In this document: piece after piece, positions 3,180 to 57,363 of the stretch
Layout: each line of letters starts with the position of its first letter
Numbering within the stretch: position 1 is the first letter of the stretch
NCBI GenBank assembly: GCA_009780025.1
Contig: WRAV01000005.1
Location: 1-64,000 of the forward strand
DNA: 64,000 bases
Reading direction: 5' to 3'
From: Oscillospiraceae bacterium
GTDB taxonomy: Bacteria > Bacillota > Clostridia > Oscillospirales > Ruminococcaceae
Notes under the pieces: generated by a model
Database searches by the model: none
What the model was told of the DNA's origin: nothing
Seen by the model: the letters and a program-made list of their open reading frames with translations, nothing else
Program-made: the position numbers and the translations under genes

Positions 3180-3344
3180 AGGTCCGTTTGTGGGGAACGA
3201 TGGCGATCGTCCCGGCTAATTCTATACGCGAATCGTTGTAGGGGACTATGACAATCGTTCCGCGGGCTTGGTGTTGTAGGGGCGGGGTTCCATCCCCGAC
3301 CGCCACCGCCAGGGTCAAGTTCAAGGTCAAGAGCTTTAGGCCAA
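3180..3344. repeat. GTAG-type palindromic repeat units, left flank of the large inverted-repeat element
   Basis: Two or three short hairpin units lie side by side. One contains GGGGAACGATGGCGATCGTCCC. A second begins GTAGGGGACT. A third, at about 3287-3316, begins GTAGGGGCGGGGTTCC and continues into ATCCCCGACC. The third unit reappears in inverted orientation at about 4084-4113 on the far side of the 643-bp element and again beside its half copy near 16046. No coding sequence is supportable here. Confidence 0.75.
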
Positions 3345-3987
3345 GGTCAAGACCAAATATAGAATCAGCCTGCGGGCTGGGATTATTGTACCGCTCCTGC
3401 CGCGGAGGCACTTACTTTTCTTTGCCTCGCCAAAGAGAAAGTAAGCAAAAGAAAGGCGACTGGGGGAGGACCGGGTCTGACTACTCACAAAGGACGTGCT
3501 CCGCAGACAACTCCCCCAGGCCCCCTCTGGTAGGTCAAGGGCAGGTTGGTGGGGACAGTAGGTTTGCGAACGGACGATACAGCTCCGCAGCCAACGTGTT
3601 CGTCAGTAACGGCGCAGTTTGCAGCAAACACCTCACCGCGAGAATTCCTTACCCCAAACCCGGGCTCGCATAGCGGCTGGGTTAGTTTGCGGGTAGCCAA
3701 GGGCTCGAAGTTCGAAGGCGTCTGCTGTCACTCCCGCCTCTGTTGACAAGATCGGGAGCTCGCGAGAATTACTCACAATCAAACGCTCCGGCTCTCGTTC
3801 ACCTGCCCGTGGAGAGGGGGTCTGGGGGAGTTGAGAGCGAGTGCCTTTCGAGCTCTCCCGGTTCTCCCCCAGTCGCCTTTCTTTTGCTTACTTTCTCTTT
3901 GGCGATACAAAGAAAAGTAAGTGCCTCCGCGGCATGAGCGGTACAATATGCCCAGCCCGCAGGCTGATTCTATATTTGGTCTTGACC
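3345..3987. repeat. 643-bp element with 131-bp inverted arms (copy 1)
   Basis: The left arm (3345-3475) and the reverse complement of the right arm (3857-3987) match at about 95% by eye, with roughly seven mismatches. The arms end in GGTCAAGACC and include the segment TACCGCTCC-TGCCGCGGAGG and the phrase GGCGACTGGGGGAG. The 381-bp loop holds smaller inverted repeats (CTGGGGGAG facing CTCCCCCAG). Another full copy lies at about 46965-47590, reverse-complemented relative to this one, and a half copy at 16076-16435. No transposase or convincing ORF is inside. Frames reading RQRESKQKKGDWGR are open only because the copies are nearly identical. Confidence 0.9.
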
Positions 3988-4040
3988 TGAAGACCTTGAA
4001 CTGGACTTGACCTGGAACTGGACCTTGACCAATCGGCGCG

Positions 4041-4293
4041 TCGAAGTCGCCGCGCCATACAAGGGGTGTCCGTGGAAACTGGGCGGTCGGGGATGGAACC
4101 CCGACCCTACACGGGTGACGTTCGTGGCAACCCGCGGGCGGGAAAATCCCGCCCCTACAACGATTGTTAGGCTTGTGGGGATTTGCGGGACGCACGGGAG
4201 TGCGTCCCCTACAACGACAGGCCTCATGGTAAACCTGTCGGGAACCTCGACCCTATAGCGACAGGTTCGTGGAAAAAGGCAGACCGGCCCCTA
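4041..4293. repeat. array of GTAG-type palindromic units between the large element and polA
   Basis: At least four hairpin units sit in tandem: GGGATGGAACCCCGACCCTAC, GGGCGGGAAAATCCCGCCCCTAC, GGGACGCACGGGAGTGCGTCCCCTAC and one ending GGCCCCTAC. They are linked by spacers such as AACGATTGTTAGG. The last unit supplies the TAG stop of polA. A similar array lies at 47640-47820 on the same relative side of the other full copy of the large element, and the linker GGCTTGTGGGGATT recurs there as AGCTTGTGGGGATT. Confidence 0.8.
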
Positions 4294-6867
4294 CTTCGCC
4301 TCCAACCAGTTGGGGCCGGCCCCAACATCAACCTTCAGCGGCACGCAGAGCTCCATAGCCCCCTCCATTTCTTCTTTGAGCAGAAGGGCAACCTTGTCCG
4401 CCTCGGCGGCAGGACACTCAACTATCAACTCATCGTGCACTTGGAGGATAAGCTTTGCGGCCAGGCCTTCTCTGCGCAGGCGCTCGAATACCTTTACCAT
4501 CGCAATCTTTATTATATCCGCCGAACTGCCCTGTATTGGGGTGTTCATGGCCACCCGCTTGCCGAACTCACGGGTAGGGCGCATAGAGGCGGTCAGCTCG
4601 GGCAGGTAGCGGCGGCGATTCATTAGGGTCTGGACAAAGCCGTGCTCGGTGCCCTGCTCTACGGTGTCTTCCATATACTGGCGCACCCCCGCAAAATTCT
4701 GAAGGTAACCCTTGATATACTGGTCGGCCTCGCTGACGCTAACACCTATATCTTGGGATAGCGAAAATGCCCCAATGCCATAGACAATCCCAAAGTTGAC
4801 CGCTTTGGCCCGCGAGCGCATCACGGGGGTGACCAGCTCGGGCGGCAGGTCAAAGACCTGGGAGGCGGTGCGAGTGTGTATGTCCTCATCATTTGCGAAG
4901 GCTTCAATCATTTGCTTGTCCTGGGCGATATGGGCCAGCACGCGCAGCTCAATCTGGGAGTAGTCGGCGTCCAGCAGGACATTGCCATCCCCGGCCCGGA
5001 AGAACCGACGGAGCTCACTGCCAAGCTCGGTGCGGATAGGGATGTTTTGCATGTTGGGCTCGGCGGAAGAAATCCGCCCGGTGCGGGTGAGTGTCTGCTG
5101 GAAGCTGGTGTGAATCCGACCATTGGGGCTTACGACTTTGAGCAGGCCGTCCACATAGGTAGACTTGAGCTTTGCCGCCTTGCGGTATTCGAGTATGTCG
5201 GCGATAATCGGGTGGATTCCCAGCAAGGACTGGAGCACATCCGCATCGGTAGAGTAGCCGGTCTTGGTTTTCTTCTTGGCGGGCAGCCCCAGTTTTTCAA
5301 AGAGAATTACCCCCAACTGCTTGGGCGAGCCTAAGTTGAACTCTTCCCCGGCGTGGGCGTAGGCACTGCGCTGGTGGCGTTCGATAGCCTCGTCCAGCCC
5401 GTGGCCAAATGCCTCCAGTCCCTGGGTGTCCAAGGCAAACCCAGTGCGCTCCATGTCGGCCAGCACCCGGCAGAGCGGCAGTTCGACCTCGTGGAGCAGC
5501 CGGTACTGCCCAGCCTCTGAGATGCGCTTTTCAAGCTCATCGGCCAGCGCGGGCAGCAGCGCGCAGTCTTCGAGCAGCTCGCCCCATGTGCCGAAAAAAC
5601 CCGCTATGCTCAGCCCTGGGGTATTGTAGGCCGCCGCCAGCCGCTTTATCGAGTAGTCGCTGGAGGTGGGGTTGAGAATATAGCCGGCAATCTCGGCATC
5701 GAGCGCGATGTTTTTTATCTCAAAGCCGTGGGCCAGTGCGAAGTGGTGAAGCTCCTTCAGCCCGCTTGTCCGCTTGGGGGCTGGACTTTCGAGCAGCTGG
5801 CGGGCAGTCTCGGTTGCGCCGGCGTCCCAAAGGCAGACACTGTCGCCAAAAGCAGCGCAGACCGCAGCCACTTCACCTTTGTGTAGGCCAAATAGGACGT
5901 CTATCGGCTTTGTGGACGCAAGCAATTCATCCAGCAGCGGGTTGAATTTGATCTCAAATGGCCGGGCAATCTCGGTCTCTGGGGCGGGGGCGTCCACCTT
6001 CTTGACCCCAAACCGCTCAGTCAGGCTAAACAGCTCGAGGCCACTCATAAGCTCCCAAGCACGGGCGGCGGCGACATTCCCTGGCTTTAGCTGTTCGAGG
6101 GTGAGCTCGAGAGGAGCACGGCAGTCTATAATAGCCAGCTCCCGGCTGAGGTAGGCGAGCTCTTTGCCGGTGCGCAGTTTTTCCCGCAGGCTGTCGCGGA
6201 TAGCCAGCTCGTCCAGGTTTTCATAGATGTTGTCAAGGCTGCCGTGTGCCTGCATCAGGCTCAGAGCGGTCTTCTCGCCCACACCGGCCACACCGGGGAT
6301 GTTGTCCGAGGAGTCTCCCATCAGCGCCTTCAGGTCGATTAATTGCGCCGGTATAAGGCCATATTTTTCGTTTACGGCAGCGATGTCTATGATGTCGGCT
6401 TGCGGGCGCCCACCTTTTGTATAGGCCAACCGCACAGTTGTAGTCTCGCTGACCAGCTGGAAGGAGTCCCTATCCCCGGTGGCAATCACGCACTCGGCGC
6501 CTTCAGATCCCGCCATGCAAGAAAGGCACCCAAGCAGGTCGTCGGCCTCGTAGCCCTCCCGCTCGACAATCATAAACCCTAGCGCTGTCAGCAAGTCTTT
6601 TAGCGGTTGCAGCTGCCGGGCAAGGTCGTCAGGCATACCTTTGCGGGTGGCCTTGTAGCCCTCATACAGCTTGTGCCGAAATGTTGGAGCGCGCAAGTCA
6701 AATGCCATAGCCACGCAGTCGGGCTTAGTTTCCTGCAACAGGCTATGCAGAATTGAAAGGAAACCGTATATGCCGTTTGTCGGCATACCGTCCCGGGTGG
6801 ACAGCGCCCGGATACCGTAATAGGCCCGGTTGAGGATGCTGTTTGCGTCTATTGCGAGTAGCTTCAT
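4291..6867 (-). CDS. polA: DNA polymerase I
   Basis: An 858-residue family A polymerase used for gap filling and Okazaki-fragment processing. The N-terminal 5'-3' exonuclease domain (residues 1-290) shows AIDANSILNRAYYG, GYEADDLLG and GDSSDNIPGVAGVGEKTA. The middle domain (about 300-470) lacks the acidic residues of a 3'-5' proofreading site, as in Bacillus-type Pol I. The polymerase domain has motif A (LLDADYSQIELRVLAH), motif B (RSRAKAVNFGIVYG) and motif C (LQVHDELIVE). The C-terminus (GPNWLEAK) is typical, so the TAG stop is genuine although it is part of a GTAGGGGCC repeat unit. Confidence 0.98.
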   Translation of the reverse strand: MKLLAIDANSILNRAYYGIRALSTRDGMPTNGIYGFLSILHSLLQETKPDCVAMAFDLRAPTFRHKLYEGYKATRKGMPDDLARQLQPLKDLLTALGFMIVEREGYEADDLLGCLSCMAGSEGAECVIATGDRDSFQLVSETTTVRLAYTKGGRPQADIIDIAAVNEKYGLIPAQLIDLKALMGDSSDNIPGVAGVGEKTALSLMQAHGSLDNIYENLDELAIRDSLREKLRTGKELAYLSRELAIIDCRAPLELTLEQLKPGNVAAARAWELMSGLELFSLTERFGVKKVDAPAPETEIARPFEIKFNPLLDELLASTKPIDVLFGLHKGEVAAVCAAFGDSVCLWDAGATETARQLLESPAPKRTSGLKELHHFALAHGFEIKNIALDAEIAGYILNPTSSDYSIKRLAAAYNTPGLSIAGFFGTWGELLEDCALLPALADELEKRISEAGQYRLLHEVELPLCRVLADMERTGFALDTQGLEAFGHGLDEAIERHQRSAYAHAGEEFNLGSPKQLGVILFEKLGLPAKKKTKTGYSTDADVLQSLLGIHPIIADILEYRKAAKLKSTYVDGLLKVVSPNGRIHTSFQQTLTRTGRISSAEPNMQNIPIRTELGSELRRFFRAGDGNVLLDADYSQIELRVLAHIAQDKQMIEAFANDEDIHTRTASQVFDLPPELVTPVMRSRAKAVNFGIVYGIGAFSLSQDIGVSVSEADQYIKGYLQNFAGVRQYMEDTVEQGTEHGFVQTLMNRRRYLPELTASMRPTREFGKRVAMNTPIQGSSADIIKIAMVKVFERLRREGLAAKLILQVHDELIVECPAAEADKVALLLKEEMEGAMELCVPLKVDVGAGPNWLEAK

Positions 6868-13620: not shown

Positions 13621-13703
13621 GTAGGGACGACCGCCCTCTGTCGTCTGCGCTTCCAATTTGCGCTATAATAAAAAAGCAGACGATCGAGGGCGGTCGTCCC
13701 TAC
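13621..13703. repeat. GTAG-type hairpin element, paired units
   Basis: Arms of 28 bp, from GTAGGGACGACCGCCCTC to the mirrored GAGGGCGGTCGTCCCTAC, enclose a 27-bp loop. It lies in the leader of the aminotransferase gene, 72 bp before the ATG. Confidence 0.88.
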
Positions 13704-13774: not shown

Positions 13775-15055
13775 ATGGCAACTTACCGCGAAATGAGCAA
13801 ACAAGAACTTGAGGCTCTGCTCTGCGATCTGCAAAAAGAATACGAGGGCTACAAGGCTAAGGGGCTGAAACTTGACCTAAGCCGCGGCAAGCCTGACAAA
13901 GCTCAGCTTGAGCTGAGTATGCCTATGTTGGATGTGCTGAGCGCCGCCGACGTCCTGGCCGGCGAGGACGGCACCGACGCCCGCAACTACGGCGTCCTCG
14001 ATGGGCTGCCCGAGGCTAAAAAGCTGATGGCGCAAATTCTTGAGCTCGCGCCTGAGCAGGTGTTTGTGGGGGGCGCTTCCAGCCTCAACCTGATGCATGA
14101 CTGCATGGGGCTGGGTTTTCTCCACGGATACCCCGGCGGGAATGGCGGATGGTACAAAGAGGGCAAAGTAAAGTTCCTCTGCCCAGCGCCCGGTTATGAC
14201 CGGCATTTTTCGGTCACCGAGCACTTCGGCATTGAACTTGTCAGCGTGCCCATGACCGGCGAAGGGCCCGACATGGCCGAGGTCGAGCGTCTGGTGGCCG
14301 ACCCCGCGGTAAAGGGTATCTGGTGCGTGCCCAAGTACCAAAACCCACTGGGGCTCACTTTCTCGGATGAAGTCGTGCGGGCATTTGCCCGGCTCTCCCC
14401 CGCTGCCGGTGACTTCCGCATATTCTGGGATAACGCTTACAATGTTCACGACCTTTACCCCGGCGAGGGCGACCAGCTGCTAAACCTAATGGACGAGCTG
14501 AAGGCCACCGGCAAAGAAGACATGGTGCTGATGTTCTCTTCCACTTCAAAGATAACCTTTGCAGGGTCGGGTATCTCGGCTATTGGGTGTTCGGCCGCCA
14601 ATATGGCGTGGGTTAAGAAGCACTTCGGCTTCCAGATTATTGGCTACGATAAAGTAAACATGCTGCGACATGTCAAGTTTCTGCCGGATATAGCGGCGGT
14701 TAAGTCGCATATGGTCAAGCATGCCCAGCTACTGAGGCCTAAGTTTGAGGCCGTGCGCAACACACTTGAAGACAACCTCGGCGAGACCGGAGTTGCCAGC
14801 TGGACAAATCCCAGGGGCGGGTACTTTGTCTCCCTGGATATTTTGGAGGGCTGCGCTGTCCGCACGATTGCTCTATGCAAAGAGGCCGGCGTTGTGATGA
14901 CCGGCGCGGGGGCACCTTTCCCCTACGGCAAGGACCCGGAGGACAAGAACATTCGCATTGCGCCGTCGTTTGCCCCGCTGGGCGAAGTCAAACAAGCAGC
15001 CGCGCTGCTTTGCCTGTGTGCAAAGATTGCCTGCGTGGAGAAGCTGCTGGGGTAG
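13775..15055 (+). CDS. PLP-dependent aminotransferase (Aminotran_MocR / aspartate-type)
   Basis: A 426-residue fold-type I aminotransferase. The ATG at 13775 follows GGAAAGGAG. Recognisable parts are LDLSRGKPDKAQLELS near the N-terminus, the cofactor-ring segment DNAYNVHDL, the PLP lysine in FSSTSKITFAGSGIS, and the C-terminal RIAPSFAPLGE. This places it in the Aminotran_MocR group, members of which include aspartate aminotransferases. The exact amino donor is not decidable here. It is monocistronic, with its own promoter and a bidirectional terminator. Confidence 0.9.
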   Translation: MATYREMSKQELEALLCDLQKEYEGYKAKGLKLDLSRGKPDKAQLELSMPMLDVLSAADVLAGEDGTDARNYGVLDGLPEAKKLMAQILELAPEQVFVGGASSLNLMHDCMGLGFLHGYPGGNGGWYKEGKVKFLCPAPGYDRHFSVTEHFGIELVSVPMTGEGPDMAEVERLVADPAVKGIWCVPKYQNPLGLTFSDEVVRAFARLSPAAGDFRIFWDNAYNVHDLYPGEGDQLLNLMDELKATGKEDMVLMFSSTSKITFAGSGISAIGCSAANMAWVKKHFGFQIIGYDKVNMLRHVKFLPDIAAVKSHMVKHAQLLRPKFEAVRNTLEDNLGETGVASWTNPRGGYFVSLDILEGCAVRTIALCKEAGVVMTGAGAPFPYGKDPEDKNIRIAPSFAPLGEVKQAAALLCLCAKIACVEKLLG

Positions 15056-15099: not shown

Positions 15100-15124
15100 G
15101 CGGGCGAACACAGTTCGCCCCTAC
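15100..15124. repeat. single GTAG-type palindromic unit
   Basis: The unit GGGCGAACACAGTTCGCCC followed by CTAC lies between the aminotransferase stop and its terminator. The same core (GGCGAAC/GTTCGCC) occurs at 37826-37916. Confidence 0.8.
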
Positions 15125-15778: not shown

Positions 15779-15993
15779 TTACGTCACCTCCTGATTGCAT
15801 TATAGCAAGATCAGGTGGCTTAGTCAAGTATGTTTGCAATTTACCATTGCTTTCATGTTGTTATTTGTATAAAATATTGCAGGTTGTACGCATTGATTTG
15901 TTATTGCTATTATGGCACAATGTACGCATATAGTTAACGGACTTGAAAATTGCCGCAAGGGTTGGGTGGCTTTTGAGTTCAAGGTCTAACGTC

Positions 15994-16072
15994 GTAGGGG
16001 CCGCTTCCCTGCGCGTCCTGCCTTTGACCACAAACCTATCGCCGTAGGGGCGGAGTTCCATCCCCGACCGTC
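15994..16072. repeat. GTAG-type units flanking the half copy of the large element
   Basis: Two units start GTAGGGGCCG and GTAGGGGCGGAGTTCC. The second is the same unit that flanks copy 1 of the large element at about 3287. Confidence 0.75.
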
Positions 16073-16075
16073 TGG

Positions 16076-16435
16076 GTCAAGTTCAAGGTCTTGATTTTGA
16101 TTCGCCTACGGACGAGGATAATGTACCGCTCCTGCCGCGGAGGCACTTACTTTTCTTTGTCTCGCCAAAGAGAAAGTAAGCAAAAGAAAGGCGACTGGGG
16201 GAGTTGTTTGCTCCAAGTTCAGTCGCAAACAACTCCCCCAGACCCCCACTAGTAGATCAAAAACAGGTGGGTGTGGGCGGCAGGTTGGTTCTATAGATGA
16301 TACAGCTCCGCAGCCAACATGTTCGTCAGTAACTGCACAGCCAGCAGTGAGTACCTCACCGCAAGAATTCCTTACTCTAAACCCGAGCTCGCATAGCGGC
16401 TGGGAAAATTCGCGGGCCGCCAACGGCTTAAATTC
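16076..16435. repeat. half copy of the large inverted-repeat element (copy 2)
   Basis: Contains the left arm (TACCGCTCCTGCCGCGGAGG through GGCGACTGGGGGAG) and about half of the loop, including CTCACCGCAAGAATTCC and CTCGCATAGCGGCTGGG, but no right arm. A private hairpin, GTTGTTTGC facing GCAAACAAC, follows the arm. Homology stops at about 16435, where a stretch resembling the 3' end of a gene begins. Confidence 0.85.
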
Positions 16436-20181: not shown

Positions 20182-20289
20182 GTAGGGGCGCGCATTGCGC
20201 GTCCGAAAAAATTTTACCCACACATGAAATTTTTATGGGACGCCCTGGCCTTGCAGGAAATACTACGGACGGCCAATGGCCGCCCCTAC
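20182..20289. repeat. GTAG-type hairpin element between gerA and gerB
   Basis: The left unit is GTAGGGGCGCGCATTGCGCG and the right unit is CGGCCAATGGCCGCCCCTAC. The ends are mirrored but the two palindromic cores differ (GCGC-ATT-GCGC against GGCC-AAT-GGCC). Read on the minus strand, the right end supplies the gerA stop codon TAG. Confidence 0.88.
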
Positions 20290-37825: not shown

Positions 37826-37916
37826 GTAGGGGCGAACTGTGTAACTAAAGTTGCAAAGACCGGCGTCGCCCGCCGGAGCGCGATGGCAATCGCAGGCGAA
37901 CACAGTTCGCCCCTAC
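37826..37916. repeat. GTAG-type hairpin element upstream of glyS
   Basis: Left GTAGGGGCGAACTGTGT and right ACACAGTTCGCCCCTAC enclose an inner palindrome-rich loop (GGCGTCGCCCGCC). It lies about 100 bp before glyS. Confidence 0.88.
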
Positions 37917-39404: not shown

Positions 39405-39416
39405 GAAACGCACCTT

Positions 39417-39487
39417 GTAAGGGCGATCTGTGGTCGCCCGGCCAACACCATAAGCAAATACTACGGGCGATCACAGATCGCCCGTAC
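39417..39487. repeat. GTAA/GTAC-type hairpin element after glyS
   Basis: Left GTAAGGGCGATCTGTGGTCG and right GATCACAGATCGCCCGTAC. It may also end the glyS transcript, and it lies 17 bp before the next small gene. Confidence 0.85.
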
Positions 39488-39503
39488 ATCCGAGAGGTAA
39501 ACT

Positions 39504-45147: not shown

Positions 45148-45226
45148 GTAGGGGCAGACGGCAATCCGCCCATGTTTCGGTGCAGTGTGTGGCCAAAGCA
45201 GCGGGACGATTGCCATCGTCCCCTAC
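45148..45226. repeat. GTAG-type hairpin element upstream of comM
   Basis: Left unit GTAGGGGCAGACGGCAATCC and right unit GGGACGATTGCCATCGTCCCCTAC. The two cores differ though the ends mirror each other. Confidence 0.85.
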
Positions 45227-46964: not shown

Positions 46965-47590
46965 TCGAGGGCTGAATTTTGATTCGCCTTCGGGCGGATA
47001 TAATGTGCCGCTTATACCGCAGTTACACCTACTTTTCTTTGTCTCGCCAAAGAGAAGGTAAGCAAAAGAAAGGCGACTGGGGGAGAACCCTCGCAAGCAA
47101 GCTTGCTAACTCCCCCAGGCCCCCTCTCCAAGAGCAGGTGAGCGAGAGCCAGGGCGTCTGCCCGTGTGTAATTCTCGCGAGCTCCCGACTTGCCAACAGC
47201 GGCAGGAGTAACAATAGACGCCTTCTAATTTCAGCCCTTGGCCACCGGCGAACCTACCCAGCCGCTATGCGAGCCCAGGTTTAGAGTAAGGAATTCTCGC
47301 AGTGAGGTGCTTACTGCTGACTGTGCCATTGTTGACGAACACTGTCAGATTCGGAGTGGTATCGCCCATGAACCTGACTACCGGCCCCGGTTACCTGCCC
47401 TTGACCTACCAGTGGGGGCCTGGGGGAGTTGTCTGCGAAGCACGTCCTTTGTGCGTAGTCAGACCCGGTCCTCCCCCAGTCGCCTTTCTTTTGCTTACTT
47501 TTCTTGGCGAGACAAGAAAAGTAAGTGCCTCCGCGGCATGAGCGGCACATTATCCTCGCCCGTAGGCGAATTAAAATTCAGACCTTGAAC
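46965..47590. repeat. large inverted-repeat element (copy 3, opposite orientation)
   Basis: Reverse-complement homologue of the element at 3345-3987 over its whole length, including both arms (TACTTTTCTTTGTCTCGCC and its mirror ending GGAGGCACTTAC) and the loop motif CAGCCGCTATGCGAGCCC. The outermost arm parts (GATTCGCCT with mirror AGGCGAAT) differ from copy 1 yet remain complementary to each other and are shared with copy 2. Arms diverge more here (about 85-90% by eye). Confidence 0.88.
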
Positions 47591-47636
47591 TGGAACTTGA
47601 CCTTAAAAGCCCTTGACCTCAGCGTAAGTCACGGAC

Positions 47637-47820
47637 CGCCCGGTGGTCGCTCCCTACAACGCAGGGTTCGCGGGGAAAGGCGGGCCGCACAGGGGTGCGG
47701 CCCCTACACAGGAGGTGCTCTCGTGGAATTCGAGCGGGACGACACCGCCCCTACAGCGGTTAAGCTTGTGGGGATTGGCAGAACGCACGAAAGATGCGGC
47801 CCCTATAGCGTTAGACCTTA
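47637..47820. repeat. array of GTAG-type palindromic units downstream of copy 3
   Basis: Units ending CTAC follow each other: a CGGACCGCCCGGTGG unit ending CCCTAC, GGGCCGCACAGGGGTGCGGCCCCTAC, CGGGACGACACCGCCCCTAC and one ending GCGGCCCCTA. The linker AGCTTGTGGGGATTGGC matches the array at 4041-4293. The rest of the gap to argC (about 47821-48003) holds no other feature I can name. Confidence 0.75.
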
Positions 47821-49179: not shown

Positions 49180-50406
49180 ATGTCTATTAAACTCATCCAA
49201 GGCGGCGTTTGCGCCCCTGCAGGATTCACTGCCGGGGGAGTTCGCTGTGGGCTGGCGAAGAAACCGGGCAAGAAGGATTTGGCCCTTATCTACAGCGAGA
49301 CACTCTGCACCGCGGCGGCCAGCTACACCACCAACAAAGTCAAGGCCGCGCCCGTCCTGCTCACCCAAGCCCACCTGCGGGACGGCAAAGCCCAGGCGAT
49401 TTTCTGCAACAGCGGTAACGCAAACGCCTGCGTTCCCGGCGGGGAAGAAGCTGCCAGCCGGATGTGCTTTATGGCCGGCAAGCTGCTGGACTTAAACCCC
49501 GAGGACATCATCGTGGCCTCTACCGGGGTTATCGGCCAGCCGCTTAACATACCTCTTATCGAGAGCGCTATGCCAAAGCTGGGCCAGGCGCTCACCGGGG
49601 AAGCCGAAGGTAGTAAAGCTGCCAGCTCGGCTATCATGACCACCGACCTCATGGAGAAGGAAATCGCCGTCTCATTTGAGCTGGACGGCAAAACCTGCTC
49701 TCTGGGCGGCATAGCCAAAGGCTCGGGGATGATACACCCCAACATGGCCACCATGCTCGCCTTTTTGACCACCGACGCCGCTATCTCTTCCCCCATGCTG
49801 AAGGCAGCGCTGGACTTCGTTATCCCCAGCACCTTTAACATGGTCAGCGTGGACGGCGACACTTCTACCAACGACATGTGCGCCATTATGGCCAACGGCC
49901 TTGCCGGCAACTCTCAGATTATCACACACGGCCCCGACTTTGACGCCTTCGCGGCGGCGCTGGCCCGAGTGCTTATCTACCTTGCCCGCCTGATGGCCCG
50001 GGACGGCGAGGGTGCCACCAAGCTGCTCGAGTGTACGGTTACCGGTGCCAGCAGCGACGCCACCGCCAGGATTCTTGCAAAGGCGGTTATAGGCTCTAAC
50101 TTGGTCAAGTGTGCTATGTTCGGCAAGGACGCCAACTGGGGCCGGATAATCTGCGCCCTGGGTTACTCGGGTGCGGACTTTGACCCGGGGCAGGTCAAAA
50201 TCTCCCTTGCCTCGGAGGCTGGAACAGTTGTTGTCTGCCAGAACGGCACAGGGCTTAACTTTTCGGAAGAGCTAGCCCTTAAAGTCCTTGAGCCCGAAGA
50301 GATCGGCATTCAGATAGAAGTTGGCCAGGGCGAGGGCGGCGCCGTTGCCTGGGGCTGTGACTTTAGCTACGATTACGTTAAGATAAACGGAGATTACCGC
50401 TCATGA
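49180..50406 (+). CDS. argJ: bifunctional glutamate N-acetyltransferase/ornithine acetyltransferase
   Basis: A 408-residue Ntn-type enzyme that recycles the acetyl group from acetylornithine to glutamate. It is self-cleaved before the nucleophile Thr in NMATMLAFLTTDA (about residue 190). The start of the alpha chain and the C-terminal KINGDYRS match the family. No argA is needed if the enzyme is bifunctional; that cannot be settled by sequence alone. Overlaps argB by four bases. Confidence 0.97.
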   Translation: MSIKLIQGGVCAPAGFTAGGVRCGLAKKPGKKDLALIYSETLCTAAASYTTNKVKAAPVLLTQAHLRDGKAQAIFCNSGNANACVPGGEEAASRMCFMAGKLLDLNPEDIIVASTGVIGQPLNIPLIESAMPKLGQALTGEAEGSKAASSAIMTTDLMEKEIAVSFELDGKTCSLGGIAKGSGMIHPNMATMLAFLTTDAAISSPMLKAALDFVIPSTFNMVSVDGDTSTNDMCAIMANGLAGNSQIITHGPDFDAFAAALARVLIYLARLMARDGEGATKLLECTVTGASSDATARILAKAVIGSNLVKCAMFGKDANWGRIICALGYSGADFDPGQVKISLASEAGTVVVCQNGTGLNFSEELALKVLEPEEIGIQIEVGQGEGGAVAWGCDFSYDYVKINGDYRS

Positions 50407-51266
50407 TGAATAAAGACAACTCGACAGTCGCGGACGTTCTCATACAGGCGCTACCCTATATCCAGAAATACTTTGGCAAAATAGTGGTGATAAAATACGG
50501 TGGCCACGCCATGCAGAGCGAAGAGCTCAAAAACGCGGTGATGAAGGACATAGTCTTGCTTTCTCTGATCGGCATCAAAGTGGTGCTGGTACATGGCGGC
50601 GGGCCTGAGATTAACGCCACACTAAACGCGATGAATATACCCACCCGGTTTGTGGACGGCCTGCGCTATACCGACCTTGAAACCGTGGATGTTGTCCAGA
50701 TGGTCATGTCCGGCAAGATAAACAAGGGGCTGGTGGGGCTGCTCACCCGCAGCGGAGGCAAAGCTATCGGTCTTTGCGGGCTGGACGGCGGGCTTATCCA
50801 GGCCAAAAAGCTGGACGTCGATGTGGATTTAGGATACGTAGGCGAAGTCACAGCGGTGAATACCGACGTAATATTCGACCAACTTGACAAAGGCTACATT
50901 CCGGTCATCTCTTCGGTTGGCGGTGATAGCTCAGGCAATCCGTACAACATAAACGCCGACAGCGCAGCCGCCGCTATTGCCGGTGCGCTCAAGGCTGAGA
51001 ATCTGATCCTAATGACCGATGTCGTGGGTCTGCTGCGGGACAAGAACGACGAGAGCACCCTTATCCCCCAGGTGAATATCAGCCAGGTACCTGCCCTTGT
51101 CAACGACGGTATAATCTCCGGCGGGATGATTCCCAAAGTCGAGAGTTGCGTGCTGGCCGTTCGCCAGGAGGTTAAGCGAGCGTTCATCATAGACGGGCGG
51201 ATTCCACACTCGATCCTAATTGAGTTGATGACCAATGAAGGTATCGGCACGATGTTTAAGGTGTAG
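50403..51266 (+). CDS. argB: acetylglutamate kinase
   Basis: A 287-residue amino acid kinase, second step of the pathway. VIKYGGHAMQ, LVHGGGPEIN, NINADSAAAAIAGALKAENLILMTDV and the arginine-sensitive-type N-terminal helix (VLIQALPYIQKYFGK) are visible, so feedback inhibition by arginine is likely. The final TMFKV is the normal end, and its TAG stop is the first part of a GTAG repeat. Confidence 0.97.
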   Translation: MMNKDNSTVADVLIQALPYIQKYFGKIVVIKYGGHAMQSEELKNAVMKDIVLLSLIGIKVVLVHGGGPEINATLNAMNIPTRFVDGLRYTDLETVDVVQMVMSGKINKGLVGLLTRSGGKAIGLCGLDGGLIQAKKLDVDVDLGYVGEVTAVNTDVIFDQLDKGYIPVISSVGGDSSGNPYNINADSAAAAIAGALKAENLILMTDVVGLLRDKNDESTLIPQVNISQVPALVNDGIISGGMIPKVESCVLAVRQEVKRAFIIDGRIPHSILIELMTNEGIGTMFKV

Positions 51267-51346
51267 GGTACGCGCCCCCGCGCGTACCGGCCGATTATGG
51301 CGGCATCCCAATAATACGACGGTACGCGCAGGGGCGCGTACCCTAC
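51263..51346. repeat. GTAG-type hairpin element between argB and argD
   Basis: Left GTAGGGTACGCGCCCCCGCG and right GGTACGCGCAGGGGCGCG followed by TACCCTAC. The left end includes the argB stop codon, and the right end is directly followed by the argD ribosome site AAGGAGGT. Confidence 0.9.
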
Positions 51347-57292: not shown

Positions 57293-57339
57293 GAGTTGTG
57301 TTTGTTATTTTGTTGTGTGCAAGGCTATACATTATGCGA

Positions 57340-57363
57340 GCGGGAATGGAACCCCGCCCCTAC
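57340..57363. repeat. single GTAG-type palindromic unit upstream of folC
   Basis: GCGGGAATGGAACCCCGC followed by CCCTAC. Its GGAATGGAACCCC core resembles the units that flank the large element at 3287 and 4084. Confidence 0.72.

Follow-up and report, generated by a model that had tools for sequence, protein, structure and literature searches.

The question raised by positions 13621-13703 is what kind of element is built from two facing hairpins whose ends are constant and whose cores vary from site to site, and what keeps the cores palindromic as they vary. The window analyzed here, meaning the whole stretch of 64,000 nucleotides, comprises positions 1-64,000 of contig WRAV01000005.1 (forward strand) from Oscillospiraceae bacterium GCA_009780025.1. 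At 13621-13703 the 5' hairpin GTAGGGACGACCGCCCTCTGTCGTC faces GTAGGGACGACCGCCCTCGATCGTC on the minus strand, with GTAG directly at the foot of each, and the two form an opposed, REPIN/BIME-like pair with the core GACGACCGCCC..GTCGTC, about 70 bp upstream of an ATG at 13775. The sequence GTAGGGACGACCGCCC of this family occurs in seven exact copies genome-wide. A preliminary description had listed units at this and several other intergenic sites and had likened them to the REP/BIME sequences moved by RAYT transposases. The listed hairpin units are real, and at 13621, 20182, 45148 and 51263 they are opposed pairs. The ends are constant and the cores variable but palindromic, as had been described; the pair at 20182-20289, for example, has the cores GCGC-ATT-GCGC and GGCC-ATT-GGCC, with the same loop and a stem changed on both sides. 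At 45148-45226, GGCAATC is common to both cores and the stems differ. The pair at 51263-51346 has the core TACGCGCCCC(C/T)GCGCGTA, and L033, one of this genome's own RAYT genes, embeds a related core; the TAG of its first unit's GTAG (51263-51266) is also the stop codon of an ORF at 50403-51266. Two further listed pairs stood in part. At 37826-37916 the minus unit GTAGGGGCGAACTGTGTTCGCC is intact and its 22-mer has 15 exact copies in the genome, but the plus unit is truncated after its first arm and lacks the second. At 39416-39488 an opposed pair is present, with the core type GGGCGATC-TGTG-GATCGCCC and a terminator-like minus unit, but its heads are the variants GTAAGG and GTACGG (TGTAAGG and TGTACGG when extended by one base).

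Units were also observed singly and in arrays. Single units of the TTCCAT family, whose core is that of the own RAYT gene L001, lie at 3276-3301 (plus strand, at the end of an array) and at 57338-57363 (minus strand, with imperfect pairing). Further minus-strand units are a single GTAGGGGCGAACTGTGTTCGCCC at 15102-15124 and GTAGGGGCCGCACCCCTGTGCGGCCC at 47682-47707, the latter within a degenerate array at 47652-47754. At 4085-4212 (minus strand) three units with three different cores are arranged head-to-tail with a period of about 50 bp. Arrays of two to four GTAG units of mixed families, likewise head-to-tail with a period near 50 bp, were noted in the window at 3180-3420, 3960-4340, 15930-16180 and 47540-47800, and similar arrays were seen in L149, L157, L164 and L039. 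A longer dispersed repeat has these arrays at one of its ends and continues via AAGGTCAAG-type words into CCGCGGAGGCACTTACTTTTCTTTGTCTCGCCAAAGAGAAAGTAAG.

Enrichment of the units depends on how they are counted. By itself, the hexamer GTAGGG shows no enrichment in the window (32 occurrences against 26.2 expected, with 17 of 100 shuffles as high), and the raw count was discarded as evidence. The window has 14 hairpins with a GTAGG foot and a stem of at least seven pairs, however, whereas 40 dinucleotide shuffles gave 0.475 on average and never more than three, an excess of the kind that the preliminary description had proposed looking for. A genome sample of 464 kb, made up of the window and 20 further stretches totaling 400 kb, contained 74 GTAGG units, 64 of them headed GTAGGG, with 70 distinct sequences. 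When 19 permuted heads were searched in the same sample, the highest count was 63 for TAGGG, which is high because this head overlaps GTAGGG shifted by one base, and the next was 30. Outside ORFs of at least 150 amino acids lay 56 of the 64 GTAGGG units, though such ORFs make up 81% of the sample; several of the eight units inside them were at over-extended ORF starts. Copies of three families numbered 30, 15 and 7 genome-wide, the largest being the TTCCAT-loop family, in which inspection of the sequences showed 25 of 30 copies fully paired at both variable pairs. The units thus have the features of REPs of the GTAG superfamily, with GTAG directly 5' of a hairpin of about 20-40 bp and many dispersed, mainly intergenic copies. 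Inverted pairs were also present: the 10 opposed pairs in the 464-kb sample had a mutual core identity of 0.75 against 0.49 when permuted (none of 5,000 permutations as high). Neighboring units on the same strand had core identities near background in this genome, but in other genomes neighbors matched in every orientation. Homogenization specific to orientation was therefore dropped as a general property, and the effect in this genome is no evidence for template switching.

Two intact RAYT-like Y1/HUH genes were found in this genome, L001 (contig 17, 175 amino acids) and L033 (contig 47, 185 amino acids), together with copies on contigs 24, 36, 29 and 60 that are damaged or incomplete. These other pieces were 43-63% identical to L001 where they matched it with E under 1e-10. 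The best NCBIfam match of both intact genes was NF047646 (REP-associated tyrosine transposase), with scores of 58.6 and 65.2 bits that fall below its curated cut-off of 80 bits, and L033 had no Pfam match at E 0.1. Because most strong matches to Pfam Y1_Tnp over 61 genomes look like IS200 proper, a RAYT alignment was used instead. The first PDB sequence match of a profile of 49 relatives was 4ER8 (E 5.3e-12), and the same entry was the first structural match of the AlphaFold model of the relative L042 (mean pLDDT 83; Foldseek E 2.1e-9, TM 0.62). The entry 4ER8 is E. coli TnpA_REP in complex with a REP hairpin. The presence of RAYT-like genes, and this best match by both sequence and fold, support the proposed REP/RAYT reading in a clostridial lineage. 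The suggested search for a RAYT gene accompanied by the same units also gave a positive result, as L033 is followed, about 470 bp downstream, by an opposed pair with its own core. The RAYT gene L039/L037 (contig 29, at about 15.6-16.9 kb) is split by about 1 kb holding a GTAG array, with its central and C-terminal parts on the same strand on either side.

Hairpin units were also found inside the RAYT reading frames. In L001 a plus unit lies at the codons for RIVGAGFHPRPS and a minus unit at the codons for GHGSPTLQ, and in L033 units with a different core occupy the same two in-frame sites. A survey was made of 98 genes, comprising the best 80 of at least 526 relatives in a collection with one genome per species (84,980 species) together with the genome's own genes and those of its family. 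One frameshifted gene with two identical units (L002) was left out of this survey and of the within-gene core test and core-cluster tree described below. The match was open throughout in 94 of the genes; a 5' unit was present in 61 and a 3' unit in 83, with 56 genes having both and 10 having neither, so the units are not indispensable. The motif [ND]H-x-H was present in 96 of the 98, WQ in 87 and Y[IV]xx[NQ]P in 81, the tyrosine motif being mostly YIDTNP, YIDENP and similar, with an exact NNP (the subclass 2.4 motif is YIxNNP) in few. In the usual layout the units flank the HUH-coding segment and face each other with GTAG outside, the 5' unit lying near nucleotide 110 of the gene. Both units were present in 41 of 57 Bacillota loci vs 4 of 23 in other phyla, where a lone unit at the 3' site, often symmetrical, was commoner. 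GTAGG words headed a hairpin in 59 of 64 cases at the 5' site and 83 of 94 at the 3' site, compared with 152 of 828 elsewhere in the loci. The frame of the 5' unit was kept in 56 of 61 genes, and the 3' unit was read in three frames, in 56, 25 and 2 genes. Within a gene, the peptides encoded by the two units are unrelated and the units are read from opposite strands; this, with the 3' unit occurring in two main frames, indicates that the shared sequence is a matter of DNA. A third layout was seen in five genes (L052, L069, L123, L140 and L143), with a minus unit near nucleotide 270 and a plus unit near nucleotide 350; these genes have two different cores with the loop ATTTAT common to both, and L052 also carries a 5' unit of unrelated core (identity 0.42).

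Agreement between the two embedded cores was assessed in the 54 open genes with both units. The 42 of 98 genes without one or both units fell outside this test, and the four genes with stops were excluded from it and from the core-cluster tree. Core identity within a gene was 0.89, compared with a maximum of 0.57 in 10,000 permutations over the same 54 genes, and the 5' and 3' units fell into the same core cluster in 50 of them. At the 5' site, 42 units were more similar to their partner in the gene than to the nearest relative's unit at that site, 7 were equally similar and 5 less similar; the corresponding numbers at the 3' site were 38, 7 and 9. A tree that left out the residues encoded by the units required at least 17 changes of core cluster at each site. 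Paralogues of one genome had a core identity of 0.90 within a gene (n = 7) vs 0.50 between genes (n = 10), so the agreement does not merely reflect one family per genome. Where the two units of a pair differed, 22 stem changes were two-sided and 17 one-sided, seven of the latter coming from L066, whose pair is out of register. Core similarity showed no useful correlation with similarity of the central or the outer protein segment (0.05 and 0.11), and the proposal that it follows the central rather than the outer segment was rejected. These results suggest a joint change of the enzyme, its gene and the repeat family.

Embedded and dispersed units were then compared. At an identity of at least 0.8, 25 of the 64 units in the genome's own sample matched the cores of its own RAYT genes, as against a mean of 5.3 and a maximum of 17 for random sets of five foreign genes; the other 39 had no match to an own core at this threshold. 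Near RAYT genes, 51 of 153 units matched the core of that gene, compared with a mean of 3.6 and a maximum of 15 when the cores were dealt out. Each embedded unit of L001 has several exact intergenic copies; two different subfamilies are involved. The genome therefore holds cognate RAYT genes for some families and, in this assembly, none for others. None of the RAYT pieces that the assembly yielded is cognate to abundant families such as GCGAACTGTGTTCGC (15 copies) or to the core of the 13621 pair, which is the core embedded in the RAYT genes L042, L043 and L122 and in that of a relative (G070). For the abundant GTAGGGGCGAACTGTGTTCGCC family, at 15 places in the genome and without a cognate among these pieces, the 22-mer is also abundant in three RAYT-positive genera; it is an orphan or transferred REP family.

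RAYT genes are patchy in the family, occurring in 15 of 197 genomes, and the units follow them. Eighteen units were counted in 154 kb of seven RAYT-positive relatives and none in 161 kb of eight RAYT-negative ones, a total that includes one stretch of 1,277 bases without any G or C (L181, GC 0.00). One 22-mer unit was present in at least two copies in 4 of the 15 RAYT-positive genomes and in none of the 182 negative ones (Fisher 2e-5). No unit was found in the 15 and 11 kb sampled from two RAYT-positive genomes (G195 and G215), nor in the sampled stretches of G009, G018, G023 and G030, which have strong IS200-like Y1_Tnp matches and no RAYT.

Presence and absence of individual units, which had also been proposed as a check, gave a partial answer. 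The 13621 pair was absent upstream of the orthologous gene in all 10 congeners compared, but these upstream regions differ too much for the absence to define a precise empty site; three of the 10 have a GTAGGG word without a hairpin 260 bp upstream, and one has such a word at 679 bp. A search covering 64 sites, many of them RAYT-embedded or in overlapping loci, returned 129 occupied rows and one clean empty site. This lies between two other clostridial MAGs, where a 34-bp gap corresponds to one whole unit and the flanks are 83-86% identical. This one comparison, which could reflect gain or loss of the unit, is thin evidence that units move.

The gene, the units, their position in frame and the match of cores within the gene and between gene and genome were observed directly. 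The reading that we consider probable is that the units are REPs of the GTAG superfamily, belonging to several families, that are disseminated by RAYTs and have in-frame copies in the RAYT genes kept alike by copying. E. coli TnpA_REP handles REPs as single-stranded hairpins. By comparison with it, the clostridial enzyme, a TnpA_REP-like Y1 HUH protein, would most likely act on single-stranded DNA at GTAG and its hairpin, and we infer that the units are moved by this transposase. RAYTs would disseminate several REP families, mostly as singles and inverted pairs. An own REP lies in frame in most RAYT genes of the clade, usually twice in Bacillota, which gives the gene the layout of an enlarged REPIN with the HUH-coding segment as its spacer. 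The enzyme may recognize the embedded units and move copies from or between them. These units may be kept alike by template switching, by inverted-copy conversion or by exchange with dispersed copies, and they would be constrained insofar as the enzyme must still recognize the family. Copying from arm to arm within a hairpin, by template switching, could allow cores to drift yet remain palindromic. The exact intergenic copies of the L001 units and the shared cores of opposed intergenic pairs both fit exchange with dispersed copies. A more tentative extension, to which we give a good deal less weight, is that the RAYT gene is its own REPIN: the in-frame pair would serve as the master copy for the REP family of the genome, and duplicated RAYTs would found new families when both cores switch together, with the specificity of the enzyme following.

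The placement of the embedded units in the protein bears on a different explanation, namely that they are chance insertions tolerated in surface loops, without a role of their own. The main text of PMC6006769 reads the insertions of subclass 2.4 in this way, 10 of the 98 genes lack units, and in the L042 AlphaFold model the 3' unit corresponds to a loop of low confidence ahead of helix 108-123 and the 5' unit to part of a beta-hairpin (37-52). Chance insertions of different families would, however, disagree in core, whereas identity within genes exceeds the permuted maximum by a wide interval (0.89 vs 0.57). The maintained frame of the 5' unit and the small number of units inside other genes in the own sample (8 of 64) also argue against chance, and we regard this explanation as unlikely. 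Still less probable is a purely mutational origin, in which template switching homogenizes quasi-palindromes that happen to be headed by GTAG and the link to the transposase is incidental. Passages in PMC8604942 and PMC8794818 describe such homogenization of inverted-repeat arms, coding DNA included, and the excess of two-sided over one-sided stem changes, larger when the misregistered L066 is set aside, is in its favor; left unexplained are the GTAG foot, the identical cores at tens of places and the dependence on RAYT presence.

The intergenic position of the units and the terminator-like unit at 39462-39486 could point to transcription terminators or other RNA elements. That unit was the only one listed as terminator-like among the pairs at 36-52 kb, Rfam gave no match in the window at gathering scores, and units also lie upstream of genes and inside RAYT frames. 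Both the terminator and the Rfam readings were rejected on the first two of these results, and we consider an RNA role very improbable. The near-identical inverted copies flanking the catalytic segment would also suit a module in which opposed units turn the HUH segment on or off by inversion. Among the loci with RAYT parts (113 to 122 per part) no gene had its central segment on the other strand; the invertible module was rejected, and hardly any probability remains for it.

If REPs disseminated by RAYTs and embedded in their genes are the correct reading, the system bears on the origin and diversification of REP families and on how these remain matched to their transposases, as the recognition element lies in the DNA that encodes the enzyme. 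With cores specific to each gene in many members of one clade, it would offer dozens of natural enzyme-hairpin pairs for tests of specificity, and with such a gene set it can be tested whether embedded units are master copies, autoregulatory sites or passengers. GTAG REPs would also be extended to Clostridia, where annotators of MAGs meet such hairpins unnamed.

Among known systems, IS200/IS605 elements have a Y1 HUH fold, act on single-stranded DNA hairpins and occur as multi-copy elements that are almost identical and have subterminal hairpins as boundaries. The fold is shared by the RAYT-like genes, and action on single-stranded hairpins is predicted for them. Unlike IS200/IS605, there are no identical multi-copy genes here, the own copies being as diverged from L001 as given above. 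Closer likenesses were found in the main text of Quentin 2018 (PMC6006769), where REPs in frame inside tnpA_REP genes, generally between HuH and Y, are a hallmark of subclass 2.4 (Bertels group 4). That text suggests that embedded REPs have little effect on the protein, and its Table 1 gives Cyanobacteria, Bacteroidetes and various phyla for this subclass. The embedded unit as such was therefore already known from that source. Judged by the features described there, the present genes resemble subclass 2.4 in their Y1 HUH, NH-x-H, WQ and Y-x3-NP signatures (in most members), in the in-frame REP between HuH and Y (the 3' unit of 83 of 98 genes), in having an own REP family per gene and in the GTAG foot. 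They differ from it in the second unit of the Bacillota genes, which lies before HuH near nucleotide 110 and faces the first, and in the identity of cores within a gene with joint change across genes. Neither a second site facing across HuH nor within-gene agreement was found in the passages of PMC6006769 that were compared, supplementary figure S10, which shows insertions, aside; nor, supplements aside, were paralogue-specific cores or the clostridial two-site layout found there or in the literature searched. Relative to that literature, the two-site layout, the concerted change within genes and the clostridial spread appear to be new.

The main text of Di Nocera 2013 (PMC3733652) describes GTAG superfamily REPs and REPtrons with the same GTAG foot, 20-40 bp hairpin, intergenic position and occurrence as singles and opposed dimers, and the words Firmicutes and Clostrid are absent from it. 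REPs in that account flank RAYTs and occur within other genes, whereas here units lie inside the RAYT genes. The use of a unit's TAG as the stop codon of a neighboring gene, seen here in the ORF at 50403-51266, was also described for its genomes. Opposed pairs with conserved ends and spacer are likewise set out for the REPINs of Pseudomonas in passages of Bertels and Rainey 2011 (PMC3116915), which gives three groups for that genome; in the present genome many core families occur together, and, unlike those REPINs, pairs are found inside the RAYT gene. One clostridial RAYT gene (L067, 3811-4314) embeds GGGGGCTTGCCCCC; for Pseudomonas fluorescens SBW25 the same passages give this as the core of the group I REPs. 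The two may share it by descent or may have converged on a stable hairpin.
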